From Methylomonas sp. EFPC3 (GTDB lineage: Bacteria > Pseudomonadota > Gammaproteobacteria > Methylococcales > Methylomonadaceae), in NCBI RefSeq assembly GCF_029643245.1, contig NZ_CP116398.1, forward strand, positions 2,728,001 to 2,792,000: a stretch of 64,000 bases of DNA, read 5' to 3'. The notes under the pieces were generated by a model. The model was not told the origin of the DNA. It saw nothing but the letters and a program-made list of their open reading frames with translations, and made no database searches. How positions within the stretch are numbered: the first letter of the stretch is position 1; each line of letters begins with the position of its first letter. A program made the position numbers and the translations under genes. Below, one piece after another: positions 12,313-54,583 of this stretch.

Positions 12313-12359
12313 CCCTCCATAGAGAGGATGTTTGGCTGCGCAGAATATGTTCCAATAGT
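12313..12359 (+). promoter_or_regulatory. GC-rich dyad and candidate promoter of the first LuxR gene
   Basis: An 18-base imperfect dyad (CCCTCCATAGAGAGGATG) at 12313-12330 abuts a possible -35 (TTTGGC, 12331-12336). A 17-base spacer and a possible -10 (AATAGT, 12354-12359) follow. The gene starts at 12406. The same dyad type is seen at 21799, 27306, 48977 and 54566. A LuxR-family protein, perhaps this gene's own product, is the obvious candidate binder (inference). Confidence 0.45.
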
Positions 12360-12405
12360 GAATCCGTCCGCCAGCTGGCGCTCCAGCCCTGCCAAAGGCT
12401 CAGGT

Positions 12406-13521
12406 ATGAAACAAAGCCACGCTTTAGCTTATTTGCGCCAAATCTGTTGCTCAGGCTTGAGCCGTGAGCTCGCGATCGGCGAATTTCTCAAAACCTTGCC
12501 GCTGGTAGTGCCGTCGAACAGCAATACCTTTTCGGTCGGCGACAGCCAATTGAGACCGGTCTACCACATAGCCGGATTCGAATTGGCCGACATGGCGGCC
12601 ACGGCTCCGGAAATTATCGCCGCCTACCATACTCCCGAGCGCCAACGACGCGCCAACGTCTGGTTCGCCTCTCATCCCTGCATCGGCGACCCCAGGGTGA
12701 TGGAACAAGGATTTTATGCGACCGATCTTTACCACCTGATCTACCGCAGATTCGATATGCATCACGTGCTGTGGCTGCCGCTCCCGTTGGACGGCGGCGC
12801 AGCCGGAGTACTTGGGCTTTACCGGCCGCAGCATCAGAAACCGTTCGACGGCCGCGACCAGACCCGGGCGCTGAGTTTATTGCCCTATCTGGCGCATGCC
12901 TTCCGCGCCGGTAACGACAGCAATTTCCAGCTCGGCCCGCCTTGCAGCTCCGGAATGTTGGTGATGGACACTCAAGGCAAGACCGTATTCCAAAGCCCGG
13001 AGGCGACGCGGCTCTTGGAGCTCGCCCGCTACCCCAGGTTACTGCGCGATATGCGCGGTCAGGACCGCCTGCTGGCCAAACTCGCCGAACTATGCCGCAA
13101 TCTGCTCGGCATCTACCGCGGCGAAGATGCGCCGCCACCGTCATTCAGCCATCAAGCCGCCACCGGCCAATATCTGTTCAAAGCCTATTGGCTGAACGGT
13201 TGCGGCGACCAGCCGGAGCGCCTGATCGGCGTGACGGTAGAGTATCGCCAGCCTTTGACGCTGAAACTGCTCAGAGCTCTCCGCGACCAACCGCTGTCGC
13301 CCGCCCAGCGCGAAGTGGCGCTGCTATTGGCCCAGGGCGAACCGTTCGAAAAGATTGGCCAACGCCTGCATATCAAAATGACCACCGTCAGGGACCACAT
13401 CGGCAAAATCTACAACAAACTCAATATTCACCAGCGGGAAGAATTACTGCCTAAGCTGCTGGCGGCCTCCGCAAGCGCTAGCGAACAACTCTACCCGGCC
13501 GAAACGGAGCGGTTTCGATGA
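12406..13521 (+). CDS. LuxR-type transcriptional regulator, paralogue 1 of 3
   Basis: 371 residues from the ATG at 12406, chosen because MKQSHALAYLRQICCSGLS aligns with the N-termini of the two paralogues at 13518 and 17824. The first 230 residues form an uncharacterised, possibly GAF-like sensor region with shared blocks (CCSGLS, EFLKTLP, YRRFDMHHVLWLP). A linker follows, then a LuxR/GerE helix-turn-helix at about 300-365 (LSPAQREVALLLAQG...TTVRDHIGKIYNKLNI). No receiver domain is present, so it probably senses a ligand or protein partner. Its stop overlaps the next paralogue's ATG by 4 bases, giving translational coupling. Confidence 0.88.
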   Translation: MKQSHALAYLRQICCSGLSRELAIGEFLKTLPLVVPSNSNTFSVGDSQLRPVYHIAGFELADMAATAPEIIAAYHTPERQRRANVWFASHPCIGDPRVMEQGFYATDLYHLIYRRFDMHHVLWLPLPLDGGAAGVLGLYRPQHQKPFDGRDQTRALSLLPYLAHAFRAGNDSNFQLGPPCSSGMLVMDTQGKTVFQSPEATRLLELARYPRLLRDMRGQDRLLAKLAELCRNLLGIYRGEDAPPPSFSHQAATGQYLFKAYWLNGCGDQPERLIGVTVEYRQPLTLKLLRALRDQPLSPAQREVALLLAQGEPFEKIGQRLHIKMTTVRDHIGKIYNKLNIHQREELLPKLLAASASASEQLYPAETERFR

Positions 13522-14591
13522 AAAAAAATCACGCAATGGCTTATCTGCGCCAACTTTGCTGTTCCGGACTGAGCAAGGAATTGGTGATCAACGAATTTCT
13601 GCGCACCTTGCCCATCCTGATACCTTCCACCAGCAACGTCTTTTCCGGCGTCGATGCGCAGCTCAGACCGACTTACTGTATTGCCGATTTCGACATGAGC
13701 GAAATGGCCGGCACGATGGTCGAGGTGGTATCGGCGTTTTATACGCCGGAACGCTTAAGCCGGGCCGCAGCATGGCTGAAACGCCATCCGGCGATCACCA
13801 ACCCCTTGCTGCTGGACGACCGCTTTTACCAAAGCGATATCTACAACGTCGTCTACCGCCGCTTCGACATGCACCATGTACTGTGGCTGCCTACCATCGA
13901 CAACGGCAAACCGAATGGCGTGCTGCGCCTGTACCGGCCGAGAACCCAAAAACCCTTCGGCCGCGAGGATCAAGCACTGGCCGGCCAATTGCTCCCCTAT
14001 CTGGCCCACGCGATAAAAGCGGCCAACGACGCCCAGTTCCGCTACGAACGCGAGGCGACTTGCGGAGTGATCGTCATGGACCCGCAAGGCAAAATCTTAT
14101 TTCAAAGCCCGGAGGCGAGAAAGTTACTACACGCCGCATCTACCCCGGCGCTCGACGCCAATCACGACCGGGGAAAAGCCTTGTTAATGACGGAACTGGC
14201 CCGCCTCTGCGCGAAATTACAAGCAGTTTCCCGCGGCCACAGCGCCGCCCCGCCCTGTTACCGCCACACCGGTGCGGCCGGCGAATTTCTGTTCCGGGCC
14301 TACTGGCTGGAAAGCCAAAGCAGCGAGAGCGGCAGCCTGATCGGCATCAGCGCCGAACACCGCGAGCCGCTGAAGCTGAAACTGCTGCGCTCGCTACAGC
14401 ATTCGGCGTTGTCGCCGACGCAAAAGGAAGTGGCAATGCTATTGACGCAAGGCATTTCGTTCGAGCAAATCGGCCAATCGCTGCACATCAAACCGGCTAC
14501 GGTTAAGGACCATGTCGGAAAAATCTACGGCAAACTCGACGTCCGCCAGCGCGACGAGGTATTGCCGAAGTTGCTGGCACTGAGGGCTTAG
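13518..14591 (+). CDS. LuxR-type transcriptional regulator, paralogue 2 of 3
   Basis: 357 residues with the same plan as its neighbour: sensor-like N-terminal region (AYLRQLCCSGLSKELVINEF, RRFDMHHVLWLP) and a C-terminal LuxR/GerE HTH (LSPTQKEVAMLLTQG...ATVKDHVGKIYGKLDV). The ATG overlaps the stop of paralogue 1 (ATGA), so both are made from one message. A tandem duplication with clear divergence suggests the two could form heterodimers or respond to different signals; this is inference. A NarL-type regulator gene follows 119 bases downstream. Confidence 0.88.
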   Translation: MKKNHAMAYLRQLCCSGLSKELVINEFLRTLPILIPSTSNVFSGVDAQLRPTYCIADFDMSEMAGTMVEVVSAFYTPERLSRAAAWLKRHPAITNPLLLDDRFYQSDIYNVVYRRFDMHHVLWLPTIDNGKPNGVLRLYRPRTQKPFGREDQALAGQLLPYLAHAIKAANDAQFRYEREATCGVIVMDPQGKILFQSPEARKLLHAASTPALDANHDRGKALLMTELARLCAKLQAVSRGHSAAPPCYRHTGAAGEFLFRAYWLESQSSESGSLIGISAEHREPLKLKLLRSLQHSALSPTQKEVAMLLTQGISFEQIGQSLHIKPATVKDHVGKIYGKLDVRQRDEVLPKLLALRA

Positions 14592-14710
14592 GCCGCACCC
14601 TCACGGAATATTGGCGACGCGAGCGGTATCGGGCTAACCTAAGCCGCAACCCTCGACTGAATGTCTCGCCGACGGCGGCCACCCGTTACCTTTCAGGACT
14701 TGTCCCAACC

Positions 14711-15361: not shown

Positions 15362-15372
15362 TTCCGGCGAGC

Positions 15373-17823: not shown

Positions 17824-18894
17824 ATGAAACAATCTAACGCAATCGCCTATCTGCGCCGGCTGTGCTGTTCGGGTTTGAGTAAGGAGATTGTGATTGCCGA
17901 ATTCTTGCGGGCATTGCCGGCTCTGATTCAATCGCACCACAATACGTTTTCCGGTACCGACGCCAGACTCTACCCGCAGTACCACATCGCCGGCTTCGAT
18001 TTGGCCGGGATGCGCGACACCATTCCGGCCATCGTCGCCGAATTCCACACTCAGGAAAGGCAGCAACGGGCGATTGCCTGGTTTAAAGACCACCCGGCAA
18101 TCGCCGACGCTCGCACCGTCGACCCCGAATTTTACCGTAGCGACATGTACAACTTGGTTTACCGGCCGTTCGATATGCACCACGTGTTATGGATGCCGGT
18201 AGCGCAGAACGGGCGGCCGGTCGGCGTGCTGGGTTTATACCGCAGCAAAAACCAGGCTCCGTTCGGCACCAAGGAACAAATGCTGCTCGGACACGTGCAG
18301 CAATACATCGTCCACGCCTTGGGCAATACCGCCCATGCCGAACCGCAATACAGCGAAAACGGTCGTACCGGTATGATGATCATGAACAGCAAGGGCGAAC
18401 TGCTGAGCCAAAGCCGGGAAGCCGAACAGTTATTAAGTATGGCCAGATTACCCCGCCTGTTGGTCGACGGCCGCCGCGAAGACCGTTTGTTGGGCCGTCT
18501 CTCGCAACTTTGCGCCAATCTCACCGCCGTTTATCGCGGCCAAAACGTACCGCCGCCGCAGTTCTGCCACATCAACCCGTACGGCCGATTTTGGTTCCGC
18601 GCTTACCGCCTGTTCGATTGCCAGGACCAAGGCTCCCAACTGATCGGCGTCACCATCGAACACCAGGAACCGGTGGCCTTGAAAATTCTGCGGGCGATGC
18701 AGGACTTGCCGCTGTCGCCGATGCAACAGGAAGTCGCGCAATGCGTTGCCGAAGGCTTGTCGTACGATCACATTGCCAAACGCCTGCACATCAAACTGAC
18801 CACGGTCAAAGACCACATCGGTAAAATCTACACCAAACTGGATATCGGCCAACGCGAGGAGTTGTTGCCTAAGCTGCTGGCGCAGGCCGGCTAG
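17824..18894 (+). CDS. LuxR-type transcriptional regulator, paralogue 3 of 3
   Basis: 356 residues. Same architecture as the pair at 12406/13518: N-terminal AYLRRLCCSGLSKEIVIAEF, the central RPFDMHHVLWMP block, then the LuxR/GerE HTH at about 290-350 (LSPMQQEVAQCVAEG...TTVKDHIGKIYTKLDI). It sits on the far side of the kinase, so three members of one family surround a NarL/kinase pair. No receiver domain. The conserved FDMHHVLW and CCSGLS blocks suggest a shared ligand fold. A convergent alpha/beta hydrolase gene ends 4 bases beyond its stop. Confidence 0.88.
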   Translation: MKQSNAIAYLRRLCCSGLSKEIVIAEFLRALPALIQSHHNTFSGTDARLYPQYHIAGFDLAGMRDTIPAIVAEFHTQERQQRAIAWFKDHPAIADARTVDPEFYRSDMYNLVYRPFDMHHVLWMPVAQNGRPVGVLGLYRSKNQAPFGTKEQMLLGHVQQYIVHALGNTAHAEPQYSENGRTGMMIMNSKGELLSQSREAEQLLSMARLPRLLVDGRREDRLLGRLSQLCANLTAVYRGQNVPPPQFCHINPYGRFWFRAYRLFDCQDQGSQLIGVTIEHQEPVALKILRAMQDLPLSPMQQEVAQCVAEGLSYDHIAKRLHIKLTTVKDHIGKIYTKLDIGQREELLPKLLAQAG

Positions 18895-20220: not shown

Positions 20221-20940
20221 TCAGTCTGTCAGGCGCCGTCTGCCGTTGCCCAACAGTCCGGCCAGACCGGCGCCGAACAGCCAGACCGCAGCGGGGAGCG
20301 GTACCGCCGCAACGTCACCGTCGCGGACTGCCCAGGCATACATGCTTGAGGCGAGATTGTTTTTGTACCAAGTTTGTTGCATGCCTATCGTGGTCGGGAA
20401 AGACCAGGCTTCGTCGGTACGGCTGGGTACCTCGTTGCCGGACCAGTAATCACCCGATTGCAGATTTTTGACCAAGCCGACATCGGTTTGGCCGCCGGTG
20501 CGGCCGTCGCGGAAAATCCCGAAATTTGGGTTGTCGCTACCATCTGGAAACTGATAGGCAGTTAACCCCAGGTTGACGAAGTACATATACCCCAGTTCCG
20601 AGTTCGGACTGGTGACATTCCAGGAGTAATCGGTAGAACCGTCGTTGGAAAAGTTCTCGTTGTAGGCAATGCCGTTGACCGGTTTGATGCTGGCCAGCCG
20701 CCAATCGCCGAAGCCGCCGAACTCCAGTTGTTCCGCCCACGCCATCGCCTCGTACCAATTCATCTTGCCGTCGGCGTCGTAGCCGCTGGTCTTGGCGTAA
20801 TTGGCGTCCTGCAGCCAGGTCACGTTCAGGACGGTGTCGTACAGCATGCCGCCACCGCGGTCCAGCAGCGCGGCTTGGGCGTCAGTCAAGTTGATTGTGG
20901 CAGCCATCGCGACCGCCAATACGGTGTGTTTACAATTCAT
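20221..20940 (-). CDS. PEP-CTERM protein with Lcl/DUF1566-type domain (copy A)
   Basis: 239 residues: signal peptide ending DAQA, then an Lcl/DUF1566-type domain (LLDRGGGMLYDTVLNVTWLQ, DANYAKTSG, FGDWRLASI). The C-terminus VPLPAAVWLFGAGLAGLLG plus Arg-rich tail is a PEP-CTERM sorting signal. Such proteins are exported, processed by an exosortase and usually end up in extracellular polymer or on the cell surface. The ATG overlaps the stop of the upstream paralogue by 4 bases (ATGA), so the two are translationally coupled. No exosortase gene is in the window. Confidence 0.88.
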   Translation of the reverse strand: MNCKHTVLAVAMAATINLTDAQAALLDRGGGMLYDTVLNVTWLQDANYAKTSGYDADGKMNWYEAMAWAEQLEFGGFGDWRLASIKPVNGIAYNENFSNDGSTDYSWNVTSPNSELGYMYFVNLGLTAYQFPDGSDNPNFGIFRDGRTGGQTDVGLVKNLQSGDYWSGNEVPSRTDEAWSFPTTIGMQQTWYKNNLASSMYAWAVRDGDVAAVPLPAAVWLFGAGLAGLLGNGRRRLTD

Positions 20941-21692
20941 AGGATTTTTCCTTGCAAGTGGATCGATTCAATCGGACTGGCGCCGCTGCGACGGCGGCCG
21001 ATCCGCCCGGCCATCAGGCCCAGGCCGGATAAAAACAGGACATAGCTTTCCGGGTTCGGTACTGCGGTGACATCGCCGTCGCGCACGGCCAGGACGTAAA
21101 ATTGGCTACCTTTACCGATGTAGTTTTGCATACCGGTCGCGGTGCTCAGATACCAGGCTTTGTTGCTGTCGCCGCTGTAACTGGTGCCCAGCCAATAACT
21201 GAAGGACTGAAGATTGCTGAACAGGCTTTCGTCGTCGGCCGTGGCCGGATCGTCGACCAGACCGTAGCCGGGCTGGGGCAAGCCGCGCGAATCAGAAAAG
21301 CCCTTATTCCCGAAATCGCCGTAGAACAAATGGGCCAGTTCCGAGCTGGTTAAGGCGACGTTGAAACCGCAGTCGGTGCCGCTGTAGCCGTAGTCGCAGC
21401 CCGCCGCGCCCAAGTCTTGGAAAGTCGGCAAACGCCAGTCGTCGTAGGTGGTGCCGCGCACGCTATCCGCGTAAGTCAGCCCATCCACCCAGGCCACGGC
21501 GTTTTGCCAACTCATCTTGCCGGGAGTATAGGCGCCGCTGGTATTGGCGTAGTTGGCGTCAGCCAGCCAGGTGACGTCAAGGTCGCTGTCGTAGATCAGA
21601 CCGCCGCCGCGGTCGAATAGCTGCGCCTGCACACTGCAGGCAGCCAGCGAGCCGAGCAAGGCCAGCCATGTGCGAAAAGCTTTAGGTTTCAT
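20937..21692 (-). CDS. PEP-CTERM protein with Lcl/DUF1566-type domain (copy B)
   Basis: 251 residues from the ATG at 21692, preceded by GGAGAAAATTG. Signal peptide ends SVQA; the domain starts LFDRGGGLIYDSDLDVTWLA and includes DDWRLPTFQDLGA and the Cys pair in GCDYGYSGTDCGF. The sorting tail is VPNPESYVLFLSGLGLMAG followed by arginines, the classic VPxPES form, unlike the VPLPAA form of most neighbours. It is very close in sequence to the protein at 26504. It leads the two-gene operon with copy A, under the dyad promoter at 21770-21816. Confidence 0.88.
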   Translation of the reverse strand: MKPKAFRTWLALLGSLAACSVQAQLFDRGGGLIYDSDLDVTWLADANYANTSGAYTPGKMSWQNAVAWVDGLTYADSVRGTTYDDWRLPTFQDLGAAGCDYGYSGTDCGFNVALTSSELAHLFYGDFGNKGFSDSRGLPQPGYGLVDDPATADDESLFSNLQSFSYWLGTSYSGDSNKAWYLSTATGMQNYIGKGSQFYVLAVRDGDVTAVPNPESYVLFLSGLGLMAGRIGRRRSGASPIESIHLQGKIL

Positions 21693-21769
21693 CAATTTTC
21701 TCCAAACAGTAGTTCTCGAGCGGATTCGTCAACTCGGTAAACCGGTCAAGGATGCCAAGCCTGGCCGGC

Positions 21770-21816
21770 ATTATCGAAAGGCAAATGGCGCTGGGGAACC
21801 CTACCGGAGTGGGGTA
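21770..21816 (-). promoter_or_regulatory. Dyad-controlled promoter of the PEP-CTERM operon
   Basis: Reading toward the gene at 21692: an 18-base dyad (plus strand CCCTACCGGAGTGGGGTA, 21799-21816), directly abutting a poor -35 (TTCCCC, 21793-21798), a 17-base spacer and a good -10 (GATAAT, 21770-21775). The same layout occurs at 27276-27323 before the paralogous gene. A weak -35 overlapped by a dyad is what a LuxR/NarL-type class II activator would need. An imperfect 17-base palindrome (ATGCAATT t AATTGTAT) lies at 21843-21859. Confidence 0.6.
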
Positions 21817-22315
21817 TCGAAAGCCGTAGCCGGCCTGTTAAGATGCAATTTAATTGTATGTTTTAACCAGGTTTGATCTGGAACGAATTGTCTGAAAATC
21901 GATTGGCATGGGCGCCAAGTCACCTAACAACGCCATTGTCGAGATCCGGCGTGTTTGCTGAATACCACGTCTTCCGCTTATGCCACTTCACGCCGAACGG
22001 AGCCATACGATACTTGCCGGCCAGCGCCCGTCGCGGCGGCCGATTGCCAGCGGCAGATCGAGAGGTTTGTCAGGTAACGGCGGCTTCCGTTGCGGTTGCC
22101 GCCGTTATCCGGCACCGCAACCTATTTGGAGGACTAGGGATTGGCCGCTGACAGCAGCGTGGAGCATGCGCATCAGCGTCCAAAAGCGGGGCGACGGAAC
22201 GCAGGCGCAACTCAAACTCATTGCAACGGCAGGCGACCGAAGGAGGTAGCAGATACCCAGATATCCAACAGCTCAAAGATTTCTAAATGCCTTCTACCTT
22301 TTTGGAGTACAAACA
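21817..22315. other. Intergenic stretch, possible relic of a lost regulator locus
   Basis: About 500 bases. At the equivalent place beside the paralogous PEP-CTERM gene (27324-27441) a NarL-type regulator follows; here only the conserved GTTAAGATGCAA palindrome remains and no regulator reading frame is recognisable. The right end has the RBS (TGGAGTACAAACA) of the next PEP-CTERM gene. Confidence 0.45.
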
Positions 22316-22849
22316 ATGAATTTAAAAAATAACGCTATCCGTTTGCTTGCGCTGCTTATCGTTCTTCTGGCGATGGTTTCGCAAACGGCGAATGCCGCTC
22401 CGGTAAATGTCGATTTGACTTCCGGTACCTGGCTAGTATCCGGGGGCGACACCAGCGGCGTCAGCTGGAACGGTTCGACCCTGGTGTTCGAAACGCAAAT
22501 AGCGATCGGGGACAGCCTGTCCTTGACCGGATATTTCGATTGGGTGGGCAGTAACGGCTCATTCGGCCGCGAGCGGTTCACCGGAACCCTTTTCGCCAAT
22601 CGGGAAATCGAATTATCCGGATTCGAGATCGTACAACCGGCGCGCGGCATCGGCTTGACGAATTACTTCGCGGTATTGGCTGTATCCGGCACGGAAATTA
22701 TCAACGGCACCTGGAGCGGACCGGTCATTCCAAGCAATAACTGGTCAGCCAGATTGGCGCCGGCGCCGGTGCCATTGCCAGCCGCGGTATGGCCGTTTCT
22801 ATCCGGCCTGATTGCGATAGCTGCCTTTCGCTCTAAAAAGCGCACATAA
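22316..22849 (+). CDS. PEP-CTERM protein, short, unknown domain
   Basis: 177 residues. Signal peptide ends TANAA; the mature part is beta-rich with Gly/Ser/Thr/Trp and no domain I recognise. The C-terminus VPLPAAVWPFLSGLIAIAA plus RSKKR is a PEP-CTERM-type sorting signal. It lies between the divergent Lcl-type PEP-CTERM operon and a hybrid histidine kinase gene, both likely functionally associated with it. Confidence 0.8.
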   Translation: MNLKNNAIRLLALLIVLLAMVSQTANAAPVNVDLTSGTWLVSGGDTSGVSWNGSTLVFETQIAIGDSLSLTGYFDWVGSNGSFGRERFTGTLFANREIELSGFEIVQPARGIGLTNYFAVLAVSGTEIINGTWSGPVIPSNNWSARLAPAPVPLPAAVWPFLSGLIAIAAFRSKKRT

Positions 22850-23021: not shown

Positions 23022-24812
23022 ATGGCAACACTTATTGCGAAATCGGCTCGACAAGGCGCGGGTAGCTTATCGGAAATCAGCGCCAGCGGCCAATTGCGCC
23101 TATTGGACCTCAGCTTCGCCCGCATCGTGTTGGGTTTCAGTTTATTCCCGGTGGTGGCAACCCCTTTCATCGTCTGGTTACACCAAATCGGCAGGAGTGC
23201 AGTGCCGTTTTGGACTTGGGCCGTTTGCTTCAGCCTGGTAGCGCTATTGGTGAAACTGCTGTTTAACCGTTTCAAGGCCGATTGCACGCGATTGGACGCC
23301 GAGCAGGCGATCAGCCATTGGTTACCGCGGGTGCATGGACTGGCGCTAGTCTATGGATTCGGTTTGTCGCTACCGATAGTAATCATGTCCTGCGCGCCTT
23401 ACCCGTTCGAGTTTGCTATCCTGTTTTTGGTCACCAGCGCCTCGATTGTGGCCGGCAATGCCACTCATCAGTCGCCGGTACTCAGTTGTTTTAAGCGATT
23501 TTTCGCTGCCGGCTGGGGCATTACAACCATCTTAATCCCTTGGGTATTTCCGGAACATTGGCCCTACGTGATGCCATTGACCGCCCTGTATATCCTCTCG
23601 ATCTACAAACACGCCATACTGGTCCATCGCTTTTTTCTGCAGCAGATTTTGCTGGAGCAAGGTTACCGACAAGCCAAAGAAGAAGCCGAAGCGGCGCTCT
23701 ATGCCAAAAACCGGTTTCTGACCACCGCCGCTCACGACTTGCGCCAACCGGTGCATGCCATGGGCTTTTTGATCGAATCCATTTCCCGCCGTAACCGCGC
23801 CGCCGAGTTGCGGCCGGCCCTGCAGGATTTGCGGCAAAGCGTGCAGTCCGTGACCCAGATGTTCAATTCGCTACTCGATTTATCCAAGATCGAGCTCGGC
23901 GCGCAACCGGTGAAGCTGCAACCGGTGGCGATCGATCCGCTGATGACCGATATCGCGACCCTGTTTCGGGAGGAAGCCCAGGCCCGCAGCATCGACTTGC
24001 GGGTCCGCACCAGCGGCGGCAAGGCGTTGGTCAACGCCGATCCATTGTTGCTGCGGCAGTCGATGATTAATCTGATGCAGAACGCATTGCGCTATACCCA
24101 GCGCGGCGGGGTGCTGATGGCGGTGCGCCGCCGGGCCGGGCAATGGCAATTCGAAGTCTGGGATACCGGGGTCGGCATTGCTCAGGCCGATCAGCAGCGG
24201 GTGTATTCGCCGTTCTTCCGCCCCGAGCATGCCTGGCGCATCGATAATGCCGGCCATGGCCTGGGGCTGGCGGTGGTGGCCCGCTGCGCCGATCTTATGG
24301 GTGCCAGCCAGGGCTTGAATTCGCACGAAGACCGGGGCTCCCGCTTCTGGTTGCGGCTGCCGGCGGCGGAGACCGGCGAGCGCCGCTTGGCGGTGCGCGA
24401 GACGCTGCCCTTGGCGCTGGGCGGCGATACCCGGCTGCACGGCCGCTGTCTGGTGGTCGACGACGAGCCGCAAGTCCGCAGCGCCTGGGATGCCTTGCTC
24501 TGCGCCTGGGGCATCAGCGCCGTGTGCGTGGCTTCGGCCGGCGAAGCCTTTGCCGAGCTGGACGCGGGCTTTGCACCGGACGCCATCTTCTGCGACCAGC
24601 GCCTGCGCTCCGGCGAGAGCGGCTTCGAATTACTGCAAGCGCTGCTGGAACGTTGCCCGGAAGCCGCCGGAGCCATGATCAGCGGCGAGTTCGATTCGCC
24701 GGCCCTGGCCCAAGCCGAGCAGGAGGGCTATCTGGTGCTGCATAAGCCGTTGGAGCCGGAGGCGCTGTACACGCTGTTGCGTCAGTTTCTTTCTGAGACC
24801 GGAAAGATATAA
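23022..24812 (+). CDS. Hybrid sensor histidine kinase with 6-TM sensor and receiver
   Basis: 596 residues. The N-terminal 205 residues form about six membrane helices, with the conserved block NATHQSPV...FKRFF...AGWG...PWVFPEHW. A coiled linker leads to HisKA (His238 in TAAHDLRQP), HATPase (NLMQNALRYT, WDTGVGI, GHGLGLAVV) and a receiver (Asp in FCDQRLRSGESG, near 525). From Tyr215 to near the C-terminus the gene is about 97-98% identical in DNA to the kinase at 28089, while the sensor halves differ strongly. Unlike that kinase it has no adjacent NarL-type partner. RBS TGGAG before the ATG. Confidence 0.93.
   Translation: MATLIAKSARQGAGSLSEISASGQLRLLDLSFARIVLGFSLFPVVATPFIVWLHQIGRSAVPFWTWAVCFSLVALLVKLLFNRFKADCTRLDAEQAISHWLPRVHGLALVYGFGLSLPIVIMSCAPYPFEFAILFLVTSASIVAGNATHQSPVLSCFKRFFAAGWGITTILIPWVFPEHWPYVMPLTALYILSIYKHAILVHRFFLQQILLEQGYRQAKEEAEAALYAKNRFLTTAAHDLRQPVHAMGFLIESISRRNRAAELRPALQDLRQSVQSVTQMFNSLLDLSKIELGAQPVKLQPVAIDPLMTDIATLFREEAQARSIDLRVRTSGGKALVNADPLLLRQSMINLMQNALRYTQRGGVLMAVRRRAGQWQFEVWDTGVGIAQADQQRVYSPFFRPEHAWRIDNAGHGLGLAVVARCADLMGASQGLNSHEDRGSRFWLRLPAAETGERRLAVRETLPLALGGDTRLHGRCLVVDDEPQVRSAWDALLCAWGISAVCVASAGEAFAELDAGFAPDAIFCDQRLRSGESGFELLQALLERCPEAAGAMISGEFDSPALAQAEQEGYLVLHKPLEPEALYTLLRQFLSETGKI
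23663..24763 (+). repeat. 1.1-kb near-identical direct repeat, copy 1 (kinase C-terminal region)
   Basis: Matches 28751-29851 with a constant offset of 5088 bases, no indels and about 26 mismatches by eye. It starts sharply at TTACCGACAAGCC and ends at GAGCCGGAGGC. Flanking DNA of the two kinase genes is not similar at this level. Confidence 0.9.
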
Positions 24813-25895: not shown

Positions 25896-26459
25896 TTAAG
25901 CCCGCCAGCGCCGCATATCGACCAACCCGAGCAAGCCGGCGCCGAACAACCAGACTGCGGCCGGCAATGGCACCGGTGCAGTGGTATAGGTCAGATTGTC
26001 GACGATAAATCCGTCGCCGCTCTGGCCGTGGAACTGGATTTTGTCGACCAGTCCGGCGTAGCCGGATGCCAGCCAATAGATATCGCGCGGTTGATTGTCG
26101 CCATCCAGCGGCGAGCTGTAGACTTTTTCCCCCTGGTAAAACAGCGAAAAACTGACGTTGGTATCGGAGCCCCAATAGTTGTAATACAGACCTTGAAAAA
26201 TCACCGGACCTTGATCGAACGTCAGCTCGCCGGCTGTAGCATGCAAACGGCTCTCGCCCAATTCCGGGCCGTGCGCTTCGAATTCTGAGTAACTCGACAC
26301 CTGTACGTGAAACGATTCCCAGCCCGACAAACCGCCGTAGCCATCGACCAGATCCCAGTCGCGGATGCCTTCGAAATCGACCACGGTCGTCGCTGCATTG
26401 GCCAGACCGCTAGTACCGAGCGACGCCGTCAACAGCGCAGCCATCAATGTTTTTTTCAT
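25896..26459 (-). CDS. PEP-CTERM protein, unknown domain
   Basis: 187 residues. Signal peptide ends LANAA, and mature text begins TTVVDFEGIRDW, as in PEP-CTERM proteins with a lectin-like beta-sandwich. The sorting tail is VPLPAAVWLFGAGLLGLV followed by MRRWRA. RBS TTTTGGAGAAC precedes the ATG. It belongs to the minus-strand row of PEP-CTERM genes at 24966-27223 but has 134-bp and 44-bp gaps to its neighbours, so it could be part of one transcript with the gene at 26504. Confidence 0.84.
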   Translation of the reverse strand: MKKTLMAALLTASLGTSGLANAATTVVDFEGIRDWDLVDGYGGLSGWESFHVQVSSYSEFEAHGPELGESRLHATAGELTFDQGPVIFQGLYYNYWGSDTNVSFSLFYQGEKVYSSPLDGDNQPRDIYWLASGYAGLVDKIQFHGQSGDGFIVDNLTYTTAPVPLPAAVWLFGAGLLGLVDMRRWRA

Positions 26460-27275: not shown

Positions 27276-27323
27276 ATTATCGAGAAGGGATTTCGGCGGT
27301 GGAACCCCACCCCAGTGGGGGTA
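27276..27323 (-). promoter_or_regulatory. Dyad-controlled promoter of PEP-CTERM copy C
   Basis: Toward the gene at 27223: dyad CCCACCCCAGTGGGGGTA (plus strand, 27306-27323), weak -35 TTCCAC (27299-27304), 17-base spacer, -10 GATAAT (27276-27281). It aligns base for base in layout with 21770-21816. The dyad also lies 119 bases upstream of the divergent NarL gene and could serve both directions. Confidence 0.6.
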
Positions 27324-27342: not shown

Positions 27343-27371
27343 TTAAGATGCAAATCATTTGCATGTATAAA
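27343..27371 (+). promoter_or_regulatory. Candidate promoter of the NarL-kinase operon with palindrome in the spacer
   Basis: Possible -35 TTAAGA (27343-27348) and -10 TATAAA (27366-27371) with a 17-base spacer. A perfect palindrome ATGCAAAT c ATTTGCAT (27348-27364) fills the spacer, a position that suggests a repressor site. A degenerate version is at 21843-21859. Confidence 0.5.
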
Positions 27372-40934: not shown

Positions 40935-43076
40935 CTAGTGATCTCGTGGATATCTCGCCCGCATGGCCCGCATGATGTCCTTGAAGTCATCGATTTCCGG
41001 ATCTGCCGCTATCGCCATTTTCGCCGCAAAAGCGTTCACTTGCGGCCTGGGCGGAATCGGTATAGCGGGCTTATCCGTTCTAGGTGTGCTACGCAACATC
41101 TGCGACACATCGTTGGCTGCCGTGACACGCTCGCCCATGTCCGGCGGATTGGTGTGCAGGAAGCGGCGGATGATGGTCTTCGGAATGGATGTGTGGTCGA
41201 ACACCGCCTTACTGACCGAACCTGCGTCGATCCAAGGCGACACCACGAAGGTCGGCACCCGCACCCCGTAATGATCGATACCCGACACCGGTTTGGCGTT
41301 GGCGGAGTAGTCGTACGGATCGACGTGGTCGTAAAAGCCGCCGTGTTCGTCATAGGTAATCAGTAACAGGGTCTTATGCCAATTTGGCCCGTTCATCAAA
41401 GCGTTGACAATGGTGCCAATCAGGTTTTGCCCGGCGCGGATGTCGGCGGGCGGGCCGTCATCGTTATCGCCATCGTCCGGCTCGTCAACGAAGTTGGGAT
41501 CGATAAAAGACACCGCCGGTAGCGTACCGGCCTGAGCACTGGCGACGAAGCCTTTGAGCGGGTCGTTGAAGTCGACGATGAAGTGATCGTCCAACGTATA
41601 ACGCTCGAACAAACGCAGAAAACAATAACGGTTTTCGTAGTAGTGCCAGCTGACGCCGTGATCGCTCAGATGATCGAACAGGGTTTTGGTTTTGACCGGC
41701 TGAAATTCCGCCAAATGTGGATTATCGGTTTCCGGCAAGCCAAACCGGTTGCGATTCAGTCGGCCAGTCAGGGTGTAAAAGCGATTACAAAAGGTCGGAC
41801 CGGGATGGGCGGCAAACCAGCGATCGCAAATTGCAAATTCGCGGGCCAGGGCATCGTAAACCGGCACGTGGGCAGCGGGGTGGTAGCCCATGATTTGGCC
41901 GACGATTTCCGGTTGTTGAGGAAACTTCTGGGCAAACGCGGCAGCAAAGCCATCCATTTTGCCAGCGTTGATTTGCGCCTCAACCGGCCCATGACTGTGC
42001 GGCGGACTTTGGAAAAACTGGGTGTCGGTCAGCGGGATGGATGGATAGTCCTTGCCCAAGTATCGGTTCTTTTCGCCGTCATGCAAACCGTCGACGTCGC
42101 TACGTCCGCCATGCTTGCTCAGATACCCCAGCATGTGGTCGAACGAACGGTTTTCCATCATCAACACCACGATGTGATCGATGTTGCTCAGCAATCCAGG
42201 TTCCAGCGGCGCTTGCGGGGTTTCCGGAAACGACTCCAACTGGCCGGGCTTTAACAGATAGTCGATGTATATGGCTTCGTCGTCGCTGGAAATACCGGTT
42301 ATTAAAAAGTCGTCGCCCAACAACAGCCGTTTTAATGCCTGATTCAGAGTTTGAATCGCATAGGCGCCGGTTAGCGAGTCCTTTTTGTATAACGCATCGT
42401 AGATTTTATTACGCATCCCGGATTCCATTTCGCTTTCCACTACCGCCCGCCAACCGAAGGCTGCATCGGTTGCCACGTCGGCCTTGATCAACGATTTTTC
42501 GGTTACTAGCAGATTGTTGTCCGCATCCAGCGCAAACTTGAAGGTCAAATCGAGTTTAAACGCGGTGAGATTGACGTTTCGCCAGTTGTTCATCTTCAAT
42601 TCTTCGCCGCCGGTTTCGAAATAAATCAGCATCCGCATGATCGGATTTGTGCCGCCGATGAAGTCCGGTGACAAAATTTCGCGGCTGTTCAAGTCGTTGA
42701 AATGGTAATCCGAGATACGGGAACTCAACTGGCCCAAGTCCCTCGGAAATCCGCTCGCCTCCCGATAAACTTGAGTTCCATTTTCTTGATAGCCGGCATC
42801 CTGATAGACGGTCAACGTACTGTGGCGATGATCGCCGCTTCCCAGGTTATGCAAGCGAATTTTGATCAGTGGCCGACTTCGATTCTCGAAAATTTCGTCG
42901 GATTTTCGTTGCAATAAGTCCAGCGGAATACGTTTTTGGACAATTTTTCCAGGCGGCGGTGCACCCACCAAATTTCGCAGCGAGACCGGAAACACGGCTT
43001 TCCGCTTGACGGCTATCTCGCGCAGACTTGCCGGTTTACCGGTCAAATTTAAAACTTCTCGGATACTGGTGATCAT
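40935..43076 (-). CDS. Phosphoesterase (phospholipase C/acid phosphatase family)
   Basis: 713 residues from the ATG at 43076 (RBS TTGGAGAAA). The N-terminal 280 residues are an unassigned region. The rest is the PF04185 phosphoesterase domain: IDHIVVLMMENRSFDHM, with Glu-Asn as metal/catalytic residues, GPVEAQINAGKMDGF, HPGPTFCNR, and the metal-binding TYDEHGGFYDHVDP near residue 590. The family includes phospholipases C and AcpA-type acid phosphatases. No signal peptide is visible, unusual for this family. It is the last gene of an operon with the GNVGIGT-repeat protein and HypX. Confidence 0.88.
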   Translation of the reverse strand: MITSIREVLNLTGKPASLREIAVKRKAVFPVSLRNLVGAPPPGKIVQKRIPLDLLQRKSDEIFENRSRPLIKIRLHNLGSGDHRHSTLTVYQDAGYQENGTQVYREASGFPRDLGQLSSRISDYHFNDLNSREILSPDFIGGTNPIMRMLIYFETGGEELKMNNWRNVNLTAFKLDLTFKFALDADNNLLVTEKSLIKADVATDAAFGWRAVVESEMESGMRNKIYDALYKKDSLTGAYAIQTLNQALKRLLLGDDFLITGISSDDEAIYIDYLLKPGQLESFPETPQAPLEPGLLSNIDHIVVLMMENRSFDHMLGYLSKHGGRSDVDGLHDGEKNRYLGKDYPSIPLTDTQFFQSPPHSHGPVEAQINAGKMDGFAAAFAQKFPQQPEIVGQIMGYHPAAHVPVYDALAREFAICDRWFAAHPGPTFCNRFYTLTGRLNRNRFGLPETDNPHLAEFQPVKTKTLFDHLSDHGVSWHYYENRYCFLRLFERYTLDDHFIVDFNDPLKGFVASAQAGTLPAVSFIDPNFVDEPDDGDNDDGPPADIRAGQNLIGTIVNALMNGPNWHKTLLLITYDEHGGFYDHVDPYDYSANAKPVSGIDHYGVRVPTFVVSPWIDAGSVSKAVFDHTSIPKTIIRRFLHTNPPDMGERVTAANDVSQMLRSTPRTDKPAIPIPPRPQVNAFAAKMAIAADPEIDDFKDIMRAMRARYPRDH

Positions 43077-43147
43077 CGAATTTCTCCAAAATCGTGCGGC
43101 ACTCCATGCACGAGCCATTAGCGCGTGCATGGACGCCTGAAAGTGAG

Positions 43148-44218
43148 TTATTGCAAGGCAATCAAAACCGGCACCAAGCCCTTACCGCCTTTCAACGGAC
43201 GCAAGGCTTTACCGATGACTGCGCCAAAGGCGCTGAGGGCGTCGCCGGCTTTCATCGCATGGCCCGGCGTCGGCGAGGTAGTCAGTAAGTCGCCGACGGC
43301 AATGTCGCCGAACTCGGCGTCGACCTTGCAATACACCTTGCCCATCAAGGCAATCGGCTTGCGCGGCTTGCCGGTCGGTTGCTTGTCCAGCACGATGCCG
43401 GGCTTGTATTGCCCGGCGCCGGAAACCACGCCGGCCACGCGCTTGTCGTAGGCCTGGCTGCTGGGATGCAGTGAGCCGTCGTCGCCCAATACCATCACGG
43501 TTCCGGCTTCGATATCCGCGTCGCAGATGTCGAAGTCCTCGGCGCAATCGGCGTTGAGCAGGCGAATATCGCCGTTGACGGCAATATTGCCGGCCACATG
43601 CAAGGCTTCTTCCGGGGTTTGGGTACCGATGCCGACGTTACCATTGGCATTGATGCGCATCCGTTCCATACCTCCTTGCACGTCGTCCACCCGGAATACC
43701 AAGCCGTTTTCCAGGTTGCCGGCACGCACGTCGATAAAGCCGGATTGATAGGTGTTGTTTATGTAGCCGCCGAACAGACGCATGCCAACCTGGCCTTGGT
43801 CGGTTATCCCGCCGAAATACAGATTGCCATGCTCGCCACCTACAGGCGCTGGCAATTGCACATTGCCGGAACCCAGCGTCAGCCGCTGGCTGGCATGGGC
43901 TGTACCGATGCCCACATTTCCGGTCGCTTTAACCAATGAAATCCCTCTATCCCACTGCCAGTTGCCATTCGCATCGTCGCCGGTGATATGCAGAAAATCG
44001 CCACCGGCATGGGTCCTGGTGTGGAAGATATAGCGATAGCCGTTGGCGTCCGTGCCGGCCACAATGTCCGCGCTGACGTGCAGTTTGGCTTTCGGGTCGG
44101 CGGTGCCGATGCCCAACCTATCGCTGGAAATATTAAGAGAACTGCGGTTGCCGTTTTGGTCGGTCACCGCTTGAGAATTCGCGGTTAAAGGGTTATCCAA
44201 TTGCAGATTGGTAGTCAT
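43148..44218 (-). CDS. GNVGIGT-repeat protein with peptidase-G2-like C-terminus
   Basis: 356 residues from the ATG at 44218 (RBS AGAGG; a GTG three codons upstream is the alternative). Three repeats of the GNVGIGT/DRLGIGT type lie in the first 220 residues, each followed by a short beta segment as in tail-fibre-like proteins. The C-terminal 120 residues (GTVMVLGDDGSL, YDKRVAGVVSG, VGDLLTTSPTPGHAMKAGD) match a widespread domain related to autoproteolytic fibre chaperones. It has no signal peptide. It lies between hypX and the phosphoesterase gene, 28 and 71 bases apart, in one operon. Confidence 0.85.
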   Translation of the reverse strand: MTTNLQLDNPLTANSQAVTDQNGNRSSLNISSDRLGIGTADPKAKLHVSADIVAGTDANGYRYIFHTRTHAGGDFLHITGDDANGNWQWDRGISLVKATGNVGIGTAHASQRLTLGSGNVQLPAPVGGEHGNLYFGGITDQGQVGMRLFGGYINNTYQSGFIDVRAGNLENGLVFRVDDVQGGMERMRINANGNVGIGTQTPEEALHVAGNIAVNGDIRLLNADCAEDFDICDADIEAGTVMVLGDDGSLHPSSQAYDKRVAGVVSGAGQYKPGIVLDKQPTGKPRKPIALMGKVYCKVDAEFGDIAVGDLLTTSPTPGHAMKAGDALSAFGAVIGKALRPLKGGKGLVPVLIALQ

Positions 44219-44246
44219 TTCGTTCACCTCTGGTTAAGTTTTAATC

Positions 44247-46073
44247 TCAAGAGTTTTGTAAAGCGCCGGCATTGCGCGATCTGTCGGGCGATACCGATCG
44301 CGACGGCAGTTGCCGAACCACTTGGGCTTTGGCTTCCGCTTGCCGATGGCTGGCGATAGCACGCGGCGTGTCTTTGGCCGCCTGTTTAAACACGAAAGCC
44401 TTGCGGGCCTCGTGGTAATCGCCACTGCCGTAAAAGTTTTCGAACATTTGGGCTAACTCTGCCTGACGATAAGCCGCCAACGGCTGCTCGGCTTCGTCGC
44501 GGCAACGCCGACCGGCTTTGGCGCCCAGTTCTTCCCGCAATAACGCGTCGTTTTCGAGACGGTGGCGTACCAGGTGTTTGACTTGGGCAACAAACAAGGC
44601 ATGCGAACTATCCAGCACTTGATCGACCATACCCAGTTGCCATGCTTTTCTGGCGCTGAGCGGAATACAGGCTGTCGACAAACGCTCCGCAGCCTCCGCA
44701 CCCACCCGCCTGGGCAGGAGATAAGTCCAATATTCCGAACCGTATAGTCCGCCCATGTTGCGGTAATGCGGGTTGAACACCACCCCAGCCCGCACCCACA
44801 CCAGATCGGCGGCTAACGCCAGAATCGCCCCGCCAGCACCGGCGTTGCCGGCCACAGCGGCGATGGTGAGCTTGTCGGGAGTCTGGATGATTTGTCTGAC
44901 CAGATCGTCGATGGCGTTGATATTCAGCCAGGATTCGTCCGCCGGGTTTTGGGCGGCCTCGATGTGATTGAGGTGAATGCCGTTTGACCAGAAATCCTCA
45001 CCGCCCATCAATACGATGGCTTTGATGCTTAGCCCCGCCAGATAGCGATACACTTTCAGCAGTAAACGGCATTGATCGGTACTCATACCGCCGTTGTGGC
45101 AAGTAAAGTGCAGAAAGGCCACGTCCCCTTCCAACTCGTACCAGATCTCCTGTAGTGGATATTGTCGGCCCGGCTTCAAGTGATCGATCGTCAGGCGCTT
45201 GACCCCGGTTGCGAACCAGCGGGCCATGCCCTGCCGTGGCGCTTGGAGCAGGTCACCCAATGCCATTGCGGCCGGCAACTTAATGCCCTTTCCGTCCGCC
45301 CGCTTTGGTTTGAGATGGCCAATCCAGACCGCACCGTCGACGGTGGCCCGGCAAATAGCCTGTTCGGCGATCGCCACGATGCTGCCGGGTTTACCGATGA
45401 ACTGGTCGTCGGCATGGGCGTTGAACAGGTAAAACGGCTGACCGCACACTTGATCCAGTACGCCGGGACTGCCGTCCGCAGCGCGAATTCTGGACACGAT
45501 TTCGGCACTGCTGTGCTGTTGCCAGTCGATGGCGCGATCGCTCTGCTTCATCGCCGGGCGCAATCTGCCGGTGACGCTGGGATTGCCGTAATCCAGGGGT
45601 TCCGGGCGGAAGCTGGGAGCCTGTATGTAGCTCATGGCTTCCCACAGACACTCGACGGCGGCTTGCGTCACTTCCCGGTTGAACAAGCTGCTTTTGGTGG
45701 CTGCGCGCATCGGAAACGTGCGGCAGGCCCAAATTGGCCCGGCGTCCATTTCCGCGTCGGCGGCCAGCAGGGTTACTCCCCACTCCGGCAAACCTTCCTG
45801 AATGGCCCAATCCAGCGAGGACGGGCCGCGGTCGCCTTTTATGCCGGGGTGTACGATCAGACAGGTGTAGCGCTGGTAAATCGTGGCCGGAATGCGCCGG
45901 GTTAAAAACGGGCAGAGGATAAGTTCGGGATGAAACAGCTCAACCCCCTCCAACAGCCGGGCTTCGTCGCCTAAATGCAATTCGACAGAGACGTCATGGA
46001 CGGCATCGTTGAGTTCGGTAAAAAAACGCTGGGTCAGGCCTGAGAATGCTGTGGAAACTAATAAGATACGCAT
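44247..46073 (-). CDS. hypX: HypX/HoxX-type hydrogenase maturation protein
   Basis: 608 residues from the ATG at 46073 (RBS CAGGAG). The N-terminal 270 residues are a formyltransferase-like domain (MRILLVSTAFSGLTQRFF, LIVHPGIKGDRGPSSLDWAI). The C-terminal half is an enoyl-CoA hydratase/isomerase-like domain (VLMGGEDFWSNGIHLN, AAVAGNAGAGGAILALAADL). HypX makes CO from formyl-tetrahydrofolate by way of formyl-CoA, supplying the CO ligand of NiFe hydrogenases under air. No hydrogenase or hyp genes are in the window; here it heads an operon with a fibre-like protein and a phosphoesterase, an unexpected context. Confidence 0.9.
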   Translation of the reverse strand: MRILLVSTAFSGLTQRFFTELNDAVHDVSVELHLGDEARLLEGVELFHPELILCPFLTRRIPATIYQRYTCLIVHPGIKGDRGPSSLDWAIQEGLPEWGVTLLAADAEMDAGPIWACRTFPMRAATKSSLFNREVTQAAVECLWEAMSYIQAPSFRPEPLDYGNPSVTGRLRPAMKQSDRAIDWQQHSSAEIVSRIRAADGSPGVLDQVCGQPFYLFNAHADDQFIGKPGSIVAIAEQAICRATVDGAVWIGHLKPKRADGKGIKLPAAMALGDLLQAPRQGMARWFATGVKRLTIDHLKPGRQYPLQEIWYELEGDVAFLHFTCHNGGMSTDQCRLLLKVYRYLAGLSIKAIVLMGGEDFWSNGIHLNHIEAAQNPADESWLNINAIDDLVRQIIQTPDKLTIAAVAGNAGAGGAILALAADLVWVRAGVVFNPHYRNMGGLYGSEYWTYLLPRRVGAEAAERLSTACIPLSARKAWQLGMVDQVLDSSHALFVAQVKHLVRHRLENDALLREELGAKAGRRCRDEAEQPLAAYRQAELAQMFENFYGSGDYHEARKAFVFKQAAKDTPRAIASHRQAEAKAQVVRQLPSRSVSPDRSRNAGALQNS

Positions 46074-46220
46074 GGGATACTCCTGATTACTCTCGTTTCT
46101 GGCTGTCGTAGCCCATGACGCACGCCCTTCGAAAACATCAGGGTGAAACGGTATTGATGGGCGGGACAACAAACACGCCCGGCGACGGCATCGCAGCCAA
46201 ACCGCCGGGCAACATCGCGG

Positions 46221-48877: not shown

Positions 48878-48976
48878 CTGAGTTCCCCCAAAACGAATGA
48901 ATAAAAACCGGCGGACCTAACAGCCGCAGCCTGGGTCCGTTGGGGGATAAGGTAACAATTGCCGGTTTTCGAAGCG

Positions 48977-48994
48977 CCCTACGTGGGGAGGGTA
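48977..48994 (-). promoter_or_regulatory. GC-rich dyad upstream of the HAF PEP-CTERM operon
   Basis: CCCTACGTGGGGAGGGTA on the plus strand, 100 bases upstream of the first gene at 48877. Toward that gene a -35-like CTTCGA and a weak -10 (CTTATC/TTATCC) follow at 17-18 bases, so the placement resembles the other dyad promoters but the -10 is poor. Confidence 0.45.
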
Positions 48995-49068
48995 GCGGGT
49001 GTGAAATATTACCTGGCGGGGGAGGCTGGTTCGGCAACGGACGCACCGCCAGGGCGTTGTAGTGGTCC

Positions 49069-53314: not shown

Positions 53315-53534
53315 GCCAAGTGTCCGCTAATCTGCCGAAAGTTTTGCGCGACGCCGGCTACGCGCCGACCGCCGCGGCATCATCGTACCAAAATAGCGGG
53401 GTGTCAGTTCCCGATGTGTTCAATACCAAAAATCCAGGGTAGCTGGAAGACGCTGGCGGGATCGGAACGTGCCGGCCCGGATTGCGCGGGCCGGCAGCAA
53501 ATGGAGTTGGCGGCCGCAAAGGCCGCCGATTGCG

Positions 53535-54290
53535 TCAGGCCGCCAGCCGCCGTTTTTTGGCGAAAGACAAACCGGCTGCGCCGGCCAGGAACAAGGTCCA
53601 AGCCGCCGGCAGCGGCACCGGCGCGGTTTCCAGGATCAATTGCGGTACAGGATCGGTACTGCCTTGCGCGCCCGAGAAGTAATAAGGCACCAGCAAGCCG
53701 CCGTTGCCGTCGTCTTGGCTGACGAGAGGATCGATGACCCCGCCCAACGCGAACTTGCCGCCCAGTTTGGCGTTCAAGTCAGCCAGCGCCCCCGCCAAAT
53801 CGATGGTCAGAATCGAACCGGTGGTGATGGTGGAGGCCTTCAGATCGGTCTGGCCGTAAAGGGTGCCGTCGTTCATATCATCGAAGGCCGCCAGATTTTC
53901 CGCCGCGCTGGAATTGCCGTTGGTCAGCACATCGACGCCGGTCGAAACCGCGGAAATTTTGTAGTGATCGGTTTCGTTCGGCGATCTGCCGTCGCTGGGC
54001 GAAAAGATTTTCAAGGTCGCGCCGACGATCTTGCCGGTGATTTGGCTCAAGTCGTAAACGAAATAGTGGCGGATGGTAATTTGGGTGTCGGTGCTGGAAA
54101 AAGGACTGCCCAGGTCGTAGCGCGGCAAATTGTCCGGCGTGGTATGAGACACAGTGGTGGTGGCACCGCTGACGGTTCTTTCGAAGATGCCGAAGTTGGC
54201 GGCGTCGACCGTCACCAGGGCGGCACTAGCGTTAGAACTGATCGCCGGCAACAGCAGCACGGCCAGTAGCGAAGATTTAACAAGATTCAT
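53535..54290 (-). CDS. PEP-CTERM protein, unknown N-terminal domain
   Basis: 251 residues from the ATG at 54290 (RBS CAGGTGA). Signal peptide ends NASAA; the mature part is a beta-rich domain with YDLGSPFSSTDTQITIRHYF and a DNRSP-like loop, of the type often called DNRLRE or PEP-CTERM N-terminal domain. Sorting tail VPLPAAWTLFLAGAAGLSFA followed by KKRRLAA. The 270-base leader upstream carries a candidate dyad promoter (54538-54583) and a hairpin. Confidence 0.85.
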   Translation of the reverse strand: MNLVKSSLLAVLLLPAISSNASAALVTVDAANFGIFERTVSGATTTVSHTTPDNLPRYDLGSPFSSTDTQITIRHYFVYDLSQITGKIVGATLKIFSPSDGRSPNETDHYKISAVSTGVDVLTNGNSSAAENLAAFDDMNDGTLYGQTDLKASTITTGSILTIDLAGALADLNAKLGGKFALGGVIDPLVSQDDGNGGLLVPYYFSGAQGSTDPVPQLILETAPVPLPAAWTLFLAGAAGLSFAKKRRLAA

Positions 54291-54514
54291 CGTATTCACC
54301 TGAGTTTGGAAATGGACTAAAACATGTTGGCCGCATCCTTGGGGGGGCAGATCAACATCAATAACCGCCAAACCGCAAGGTTCCGGCGGCATGCAACAGC
54401 ACGGCCTGGATGCGCCGAAGCTGTCGGTACTTGCAGTAGCGCGGAAACCGCGAGCGAATCGCTGTTGCCGAACTGCGGTTAACCGGGGGCGTGCTTTGAG
54501 TTGTGCTTCGACGC

Positions 54515-54537
54515 ATCAGCCCGGTTACTGGGCTGAT
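54515..54537 (-). other. Hairpin in the leader of the PEP-CTERM gene
   Basis: Perfect 8-base inverted repeat ATCAGCCC / GGGCTGAT with a 7-base loop, directly after the predicted -10 of the dyad promoter, so it would lie at the 5' end of the transcript. It could protect the mRNA 5' end; no riboswitch fold is recognised. Confidence 0.35.
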
Positions 54538-54583
54538 ACTGTAATCGGTCCGGCGCCGCGCTTCCCCCTCCCCAGAGAGGGTA
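54538..54583 (-). promoter_or_regulatory. GC-rich dyad and candidate promoter of the PEP-CTERM gene
   Basis: Dyad CCCTCCCCAGAGAGGGTA (plus strand, 54566-54583) abuts a weak -35 (GGAAGC on the minus strand, 54560-54565); a 16-base spacer and TACAGT (54538-54543) follow. The layout matches the promoters at 21770 and 27276, but the -10 and leader length make it less certain. Confidence 0.45.

Follow-up and report, generated by a model that had tools for sequence, protein, structure and literature searches.

The genome of Methylomonas sp. EFPC3 (a single contig of 4,443,658 bp) carries PEP-CTERM genes that are preceded by GC-rich dyads, which raises the question of which regulators read these dyads and whether they form one regulon. 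The window, meaning the whole stretch of 64,000 nucleotides analysed here (G000:C1:2728001-2792000), contains five such dyads, and a first-pass annotation had joined them into a single family of 18-mers that might serve one undescribed regulon for surface proteins. The five palindromes are two related sister families, not one, and are named class A (consensus CCCYAC-N4-GTRGGG) and class B (consensus CCCTCC-N4-GGAGGG). Judged from sequence, the dyads are probably (probability about 0.78) operators of two related sigma70 class-II regulons, in which a NarL/FixJ-type response regulator (RR) would act on class A and LuxR-type solos would act on class B.

Classification of the dyads

All five 18-mers were found where they had been annotated, and the neighbouring genes were as described, namely four minus-strand PEP-CTERM genes (20937, 26504, 46482, and 53535) and one LuxR-type gene. 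Four of the five fitted the proposed form, CCCWMC-N7..9-GGGTA, and the copy at 12313 did not, ending in GGATG. The symmetric core was 16 bp long (6-N4-6), and the 27.3-kb dyad, originally noted at 27306-27323, was therefore assigned to 27305-27320. Class A comprised the dyads at 21799 and 27305, and class B those at 12313, 48977, and 54566; the dyad at 48977 was one mismatch from both consensus sequences, as seen also through a same-species copy.

An origin of the dyads as chance GC-rich words would fit the genome-wide count of the loose pattern, which matched 12 times in 4,443,658 bases against 13 times for the reversed pattern. Four of the 12 matches lay inside the window, where 0.17 were expected (Poisson P 3e-5, a post hoc value because the pattern was derived from these very sites). 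The loose word itself is not rare, but its clustering is. With this clustering, the conservation across genera, the fixed spacing, and the recovery of the sites by a matrix from other genomes (see below), chance is regarded as a negligible explanation.

When at most one mismatch was allowed, the class A word occurred four times in the genome, at 21799, 48977, and 67059 (3 kb beyond the window) and at one site elsewhere. A two-mismatch word at 36643 lies inside the open reading frame 36083-37081 and was rejected as probably due to chance.

Class A promoters and the response regulator

Both class A dyads of the window lie in divergent promoters, which are paralogous to each other. The features concerned are as follows.

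27305-27320, no strand assigned: class A dyad CCCCAC-CCCA-GTGGGG, in the divergent promoter of a PEP-CTERM gene and the RR operon
27276-27281, minus strand: predicted -10 GATAAT, 23 nt from the dyad, toward 26504-27223; relatives keep this spacing
27344-27349, plus strand: predicted -10 TAAGAT (TGTTAAGAT), 23 nt from the dyad, toward RR 27442
21799-21814, no strand assigned: class A dyad CCCTAC-CGGA-GTGGGG, in the paralogous divergent promoter
21770-21775, minus strand: predicted -10 GATAAT, 23 nt from the dyad, toward 20937-21695
21839-21844, plus strand: predicted -10 TAAGAT, 24 nt from the dyad, toward 22316/23022
27442-28092, plus strand: NarL/FixJ-type RR (REC and GerE domains), candidate class A activator by Pfam, co-occurrence, and covariation
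28089-29906, plus strand: hybrid histidine kinase adjoining the RR gene, candidate RR partner
23022-24812, plus strand: second hybrid histidine kinase, paralog of 28089
26504-27223, minus strand: PEP-CTERM protein with 57% identity to 20937, predicted class A target
25896-26459, minus strand: PEP-CTERM-like protein, probably co-transcribed with 26504
20937-21695, minus strand: Lcl_C/PEP-CTERM protein, predicted class A target
20221-20940, minus strand: PEP-CTERM-like paralog overlapping the end of 20937
22316-22849, plus strand: PEP-CTERM-like protein on the plus side of the 21.8-kb promoter

In the minus direction, toward the PEP-CTERM genes, both sites had the arrangement dyad-TTCC(C/A)C-N17-GATAAT; the poor -35 described earlier as adjoining the dyad was thus seen again, as TTCCCC-N17-GATAAT at 21.8 kb and TTCCAC-N17-GATAAT at 27.3 kb. 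In the plus direction, both had the dyad, 23-24 nt, and TAAGAT, followed by the genes for RR 27442 and hybrid kinase 28089 at 27.3 kb and by 22316 and kinase 23022 at 21.8 kb. A separate palindrome, ATGCAAATnATTTGCAT, was perfect at 27348-27364 and had 3 mismatches at 21843-21859, overlapping the -10 in the RR direction and the start region. Palindromes resembling ATGCAAATnATTTGCAT were present also in other Methylomonas RR promoters, and the element may represent a further operator or a 5' hairpin.

RR 27442 was classified as a NarL/FixJ-type RR by its matches to PF00072 (50 bits) and PF00196 (58.8 bits), both above the cut-off. Genomes with a match at E <= 1e-45 to RR 27442, a cut-off set by us, were counted as RR-positive; for many genomes only 20 candidates were scored. 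The search covered 151 genomes including 36 genus members, and the promoter and class B scans covered 37 genus genomes, 36 of which were common to both sets (G151 being outside the RR search). The RR was found in 18 of the 151 genomes, 17 of them genus members, and its named relatives were from Methylomonas, with M. koyamae SM2 at 100%.

Site and regulator co-occurred. The full class A promoter (GATAAT, 23 nt, and the dyad; at most one mismatch) was present in 16 of the 37 genus genomes including G151, and in 15/17 RR-positive versus 0/19 RR-negative genus genomes. Two mismatches added G012 and G002 (both RR-positive, the latter through the tra-like site described below) and G033 and G004 (both RR-negative), with one match in the reversed control. 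Exact class A 16-mers were found in 21 of the 151 genomes, made up of 15/18 RR-positive and 6/133 RR-negative genomes. Perfect TTCCCTAC-N4-GTAGGGAA dyads were seen around position 1501 in four loci (L144, L150, L152, and L157), always between the same divergent gene pair, which looks tra-like by eye. These were taken as another family, and probably belong to another regulator; they were kept in the exact-dyad counts, where they account for the only exact site in G002 and for one of the two in G027.

The 240 bp before the RR gene were scanned in 26 loci from a named genome collection (at most two mismatches to CCCYAC-N4-GTRGGG), and a dyad was found in 21 of them, in Methylomonas and several other genera. 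In a stricter scan, from which L094 and L095 were removed as lacking an RR-proximal site, the exact CCCTAC form preceded the RR in eight methanotroph loci, one Cupriavidus locus, and one Acerihabitans locus, and CCCCAC-like or weaker dyads did so in two Methylomonas and ten Comamonadaceae loci. Several methanotroph loci had a second exact class A copy a few kb off, near a PEP-CTERM gene, and in G026 another PEP-CTERM-like gene (L154) has in front of it a class A promoter distant from the RR; the product of this gene resembles 25896 by eye, and the gene counts as a separate class A target.

Covariation of recognition helix and half-site

The recognition helices of the RR orthologs were compared with their sites after removal of the five dyad-less loci (L094, L095, L098, L103, and L104). 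The helix was SEHTVKEH in 12/12 loci in which at least one half-site had C at position 4 or G at position 13, and SE(Q/A)T-KEH in 9/9 loci in which the site was CCCTAC/GTAGGG. Judged from the cases among methanotrophs and Comamonadaceae, there may have been more than one change.

Genes divergent from the RR in other clades were surveyed, leaving out six Comamonadaceae loci (L098-L101, L103, and L104). By eye, a Gly-rich lipoprotein was recognized in four Comamonas loci and in Diaphorobacter and another lipoprotein in Polaromonas; an autotransporter (209.5 bits) was found in Acerihabitans, where the stretch examined showed no kinase adjoining the RR. The divergent genes of L106, L107, and L102 had no Pfam match above the cut-off. 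Tentatively, and at slightly less than even odds, the RR locus may be a portable module, in which a single 16-bp dyad would drive its own operon and a divergent neighbouring surface protein, namely a PEP-CTERM protein in methanotrophs, a Gly-rich lipoprotein in Comamonas and Diaphorobacter, and an autotransporter in Acerihabitans. One recognition-helix residue would shift its specificity, with His reading CCCC-type and Gln or Ala reading CCCT-type sites, and a sister LuxR-solo regulon (CCCTCC half-site) would lie in the same island.

Class B promoters and the LuxR-type solos

The class B copies of the window are approximate, and are listed here with their promoters, candidate regulators, and predicted targets.

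12313-12328, plus strand: class B-like dyad CCCTCC-ATAG-AGAGGA, 2 mismatches, before a LuxR-type gene
48977-48992, minus strand: class B dyad, sense CCCTCC-CCAC-GTAGGG, 1 mismatch
48949-48954, minus strand: predicted -10 TACCTT, 22 nt from the dyad
54566-54581, minus strand: class B dyad, sense CCCTCT-CTGG-GGAGGG, 1 mismatch
54538-54543, minus strand: predicted -10 TACAGT, 22 nt from the dyad
12406-13521, plus strand: LuxR-type solo (GerE helix-turn-helix only), candidate class B activator
13518-14591, plus strand: LuxR-type solo paralog, 54% identity to 12406
17824-18894, plus strand: LuxR-type solo paralog, 52% identity
46482-48656, minus strand: PEP-CTERM protein with HAF repeats, predicted class B target
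53535-54290, minus strand: PEP-CTERM/VPLPA-CTERM protein, predicted class B target, its start picked by the same-species copy

Exact class B dyads were found in six of the 37 genus genomes (G000, G151, G013, G017, G018, and G030). The exact site of G000, at 3771010 outside the window, precedes a 454-aa gene, as does that of G151. Class B sites (24 in total) were chosen and oriented by us toward a nearby gene, and 21 non-redundant sites were left after three G151 copies had been dropped. TAnnnT stood at exactly 22 nt at 17/21 sites against a background of 8/1470, and at 15/18 sites outside the window; the flanks of the dyad were AAATA and CGAAA. As GC-rich inverted repeats 5' of genes, the dyads might also be repressor operators or RNA/terminator hairpins. 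This is very unlikely, as they stand at one fixed distance upstream of the predicted -10 in many promoters, lie outside the predicted transcripts, and adjoin a poor -35.

At most one mismatch to class B plus hexamer was found in the six genomes and as one lone hit in G008, among the 37. Two mismatches gave matches in 25/37, a level that is noise because the reversed control was about equally frequent outside the six. A matrix built from 17 sites of G018, G013, G017, and G030 gave as its top scores in 102 kb the sites at 67501 (31.8), 54566 (29.8), 48977 (19.9), and 12313 (19.6); the best score among ten simulated sequences was 14.3. The element GTGAAATATT(C)ACC was seen just upstream of two class B dyads (54590-54603 and 49001-49013) and also before the distant solo of G005 and G034; the window held 4 matches at 2 mismatches, with 1.05 expected. 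The class B promoter at 67501-67516 lies 442 bp from the class A-like dyad at 67059-67074 (1 mismatch), before a secreted-looking gene (L136).

For the LuxR gene, ATG 12406 is the most likely start, in agreement with its relatives; ATG 12328, inside the dyad, was rejected as a start. Pfam gave only GerE for 12328-13521, and no autoinducer-binding domain of the type of LuxR proteins sensing acyl-homoserine lactones was found. Solos (E <= 1e-60, genus genomes) were present in two to four copies in exactly the six genomes with exact class B dyads, and they were the regulators that the retrieved class B stretches from G018, G013, G017, and G030 had in common. An alternative reader of class B within the island would be, for example, response regulator 14711 together with kinase 15373, the solos being passengers. 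Both genes are interspersed with the solos, in G030 as in the window, and among the retrieved stretches a close relative of 14711 was found only in G030; the partial stretches of G018, G013, and G017 contained solos and, in L198, only 31-34% hits to 14711/15373. This assignment is unlikely.

The earlier reading, a single dyad family with one LuxR/NarL-type regulator and one PEP-CTERM regulon, draws some support from half-sites that differ by one base between the classes, from the intermediate dyad at 48977, and from the alike recognition helices (TVKEH versus TVKDH/TVRDH). It is contradicted by G017 and G030 (both <80% complete), which have class B and solos and no RR match or exact class A dyad, by many genomes with class A and the RR and without class B, and by the hexamer spacing of 22 nt in class B versus 23 nt in class A. 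A single regulon is thus quite improbable, and two dyad classes with two candidate regulators are preferred. The link to LuxR/NarL-type proteins was borne out, the dyads co-occurring with such regulators coded in the same region.

Predicted target genes

Enrichment of dyads upstream of PEP-CTERM genes at large, the check proposed with the first-pass annotation, was rejected on the 30 PEP-CTERM matches examined in the genome. For the 28 matches outside the dyad genes of the window, no class A or B dyad (at most two mismatches) was found within 500 bp upstream (81 bp for one). The other two were 53535, whose dyad was seen, and 46482, for which the stretch was too short and the dyad was seen in the window. 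A sigma54 -24/-12 site was sought in 500 bp before eight PEP-CTERM genes of the window, and the best had 3-4 mismatches to TGGCAC-N5-TTGCW. Sigma54-like sites with at most two mismatches preceded 12 of the 30 PEP-CTERM genes, in five cases at 66-101 bp from the start that was used, a count that is only a hint because no chance control was made.

The dyads do precede surface-protein genes, as proposed earlier; their predicted targets are not all PEP-CTERM genes and fall into two sets. Genes that stand behind class B sites in other genomes code for solos, for PEP-CTERM and Lcl_C-like proteins, for what looks like a lipoprotein, and for RHS-type proteins. The last are genes like SpvB/TcB-type RHS proteins in G018 (L200:10515-17651) and G013 (L201/L202), the label being from Pfam for L200 and by likeness for G013. 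The 67501 site, 3.5 kb beyond the window, faces the secreted-looking 66453-66923, and G030 has, behind one of its class B sites, a protein whose C-terminus is similar. The downstream genes 44247-46172, 43148-44227, and 40935-43130, on the same strand, may share the 46482 transcript. They code for a formyltransferase/enoyl-CoA hydratase fusion, a protein without a Pfam match, and a phosphoesterase-family protein, respectively. By eye, 32415-33716 resembles a group II intron-type reverse transcriptase.

Proposed mechanism

Class A would be bound by RR 27442, presumably phosphorylated through hybrid kinase 28089, and one class A dyad would activate a surface-protein gene in one direction and the RR's own operon in the other. 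Class B would be bound by solos 12406/13518/17824, which would switch on their own genes together with scattered genes for PEP-CTERM and other exported proteins. If the hexamer is taken as -12 to -7, the dyads are centred near -43.5 (A) and -42.5 (B), where they would substitute for the poor -35; class-II activation calls for a site at a fixed distance near -41.5, and by sequence the dyad-hexamer spacing is fixed. The class-II layout proposed earlier is retained, as conserved elements at a class-II distance from the predicted -10. The sequences show conservation, fixed spacing, co-occurrence of regulator and site, and covariation of helix and site; from them we infer direct binding, phosphorylation, activation rather than repression, the transcript extents, and the signals.

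Several observations weigh against this mechanism. The class A word alone shows no genome-wide enrichment, as two-mismatch words numbered 47 versus 103 in the reversed control; six of the 47 lay in 46 kb of this region, with 0.48 expected. The association between RR and full promoter gave a Fisher value of 2e-8, which overstates the evidence because the genomes are related. G002 is RR-positive without the standard spacing, G012 fits only at two mismatches, and five of the 26 RR loci had no dyad near the RR. The covariation rule was drawn up after a first look at the helices, and its counts ignore kinship. The 12313 site has two mismatches and, at 22 nt, TCCAAT (12351-12356) instead of TAnnnT; besides this solo promoter of the window, those of G013 and G030 and one site in G018 had no TAnnnT there, which makes four sites in all. 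In G005 and G034 the only solo is a distant one (49%), with no class B dyad found in front of it. As for surface-protein neighbours, the divergent gene in Paracidovorax cattleyae looks like a HAD-type hydrolase, and no clear gene divergent from the RR was found in Cupriavidus.

Comparison with known systems

No LuxR-type dyad was described for PEP-CTERM genes in the literature covered, judged by titles, abstract openings, and passages (subscription journals and preprints being outside the scope), and this control route for PEP-CTERM and other surface proteins was not found described. What is gained here is a pair of motifs, for which candidate regulators are named and promoters predicted, and one specificity residue open to testing, together with the caution that look-alike dyads within one island can serve different regulators. 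Class A sites are carried by Methylomonas sp. LW13 (L088), which is genetically tractable, disruption mutants having been obtained (PMC11072679).

By name, EpsA (TIGR03020; XrtB/PEP-CTERM-associated) ties a LuxR-type helix-turn-helix to a PEP-CTERM system. Two solos and the RR matched only its C-terminal end (24.8-30.1 bits, cut-off 170), and solo 12406 had no listed hit. NarL and DevR are the closest solved full-length relatives of the RR, although their genes and signals differ. The EvgA box has a similar layout, for which a literature search gave no support. EmbR is a LuxR-type RR in biofilm control (PMC3684757).

CrbS/CrbR (MxtR/ErdR) of Pseudomonas resembles the class A system in combining a LuxR-type RR, a hybrid kinase, and an imperfect inverted repeat (ACTU), and the repeat that CrbR requires spans -52 to -36 before an RpoD promoter and has an AC-N4-GT core, as does the class A dyad (PMC5715377). 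Class A differs in its outer half-site, which is CCC and not TACT-like, and in its targets, which are surface-protein and not acetate genes. ErdR was the nearest family of RR 27442 in NCBIfam, at 99.5 bits against a cut-off of 390.

The documented route of PEP-CTERM control in Proteobacteria is PrsR with sigma54, and its box was found at 99/167 proteobacterial PEP-CTERM genes, further regulators and motifs being expected (Haft 2006, PMC1569441). Aquincola pepA requires RpoN (PMC9850573), and D. vulgaris DVUA0057 was mapped to PEP-CTERM genes by DAP-chip (PMC3333781). PrsK/PrsR is like the window in its two-component control of PEP-CTERM genes through a common upstream box; PrsR differs in being a sigma54 activator of -24/-12 promoters, whereas the window has GerE-type regulators and -10 hexamers (PMC1569441).

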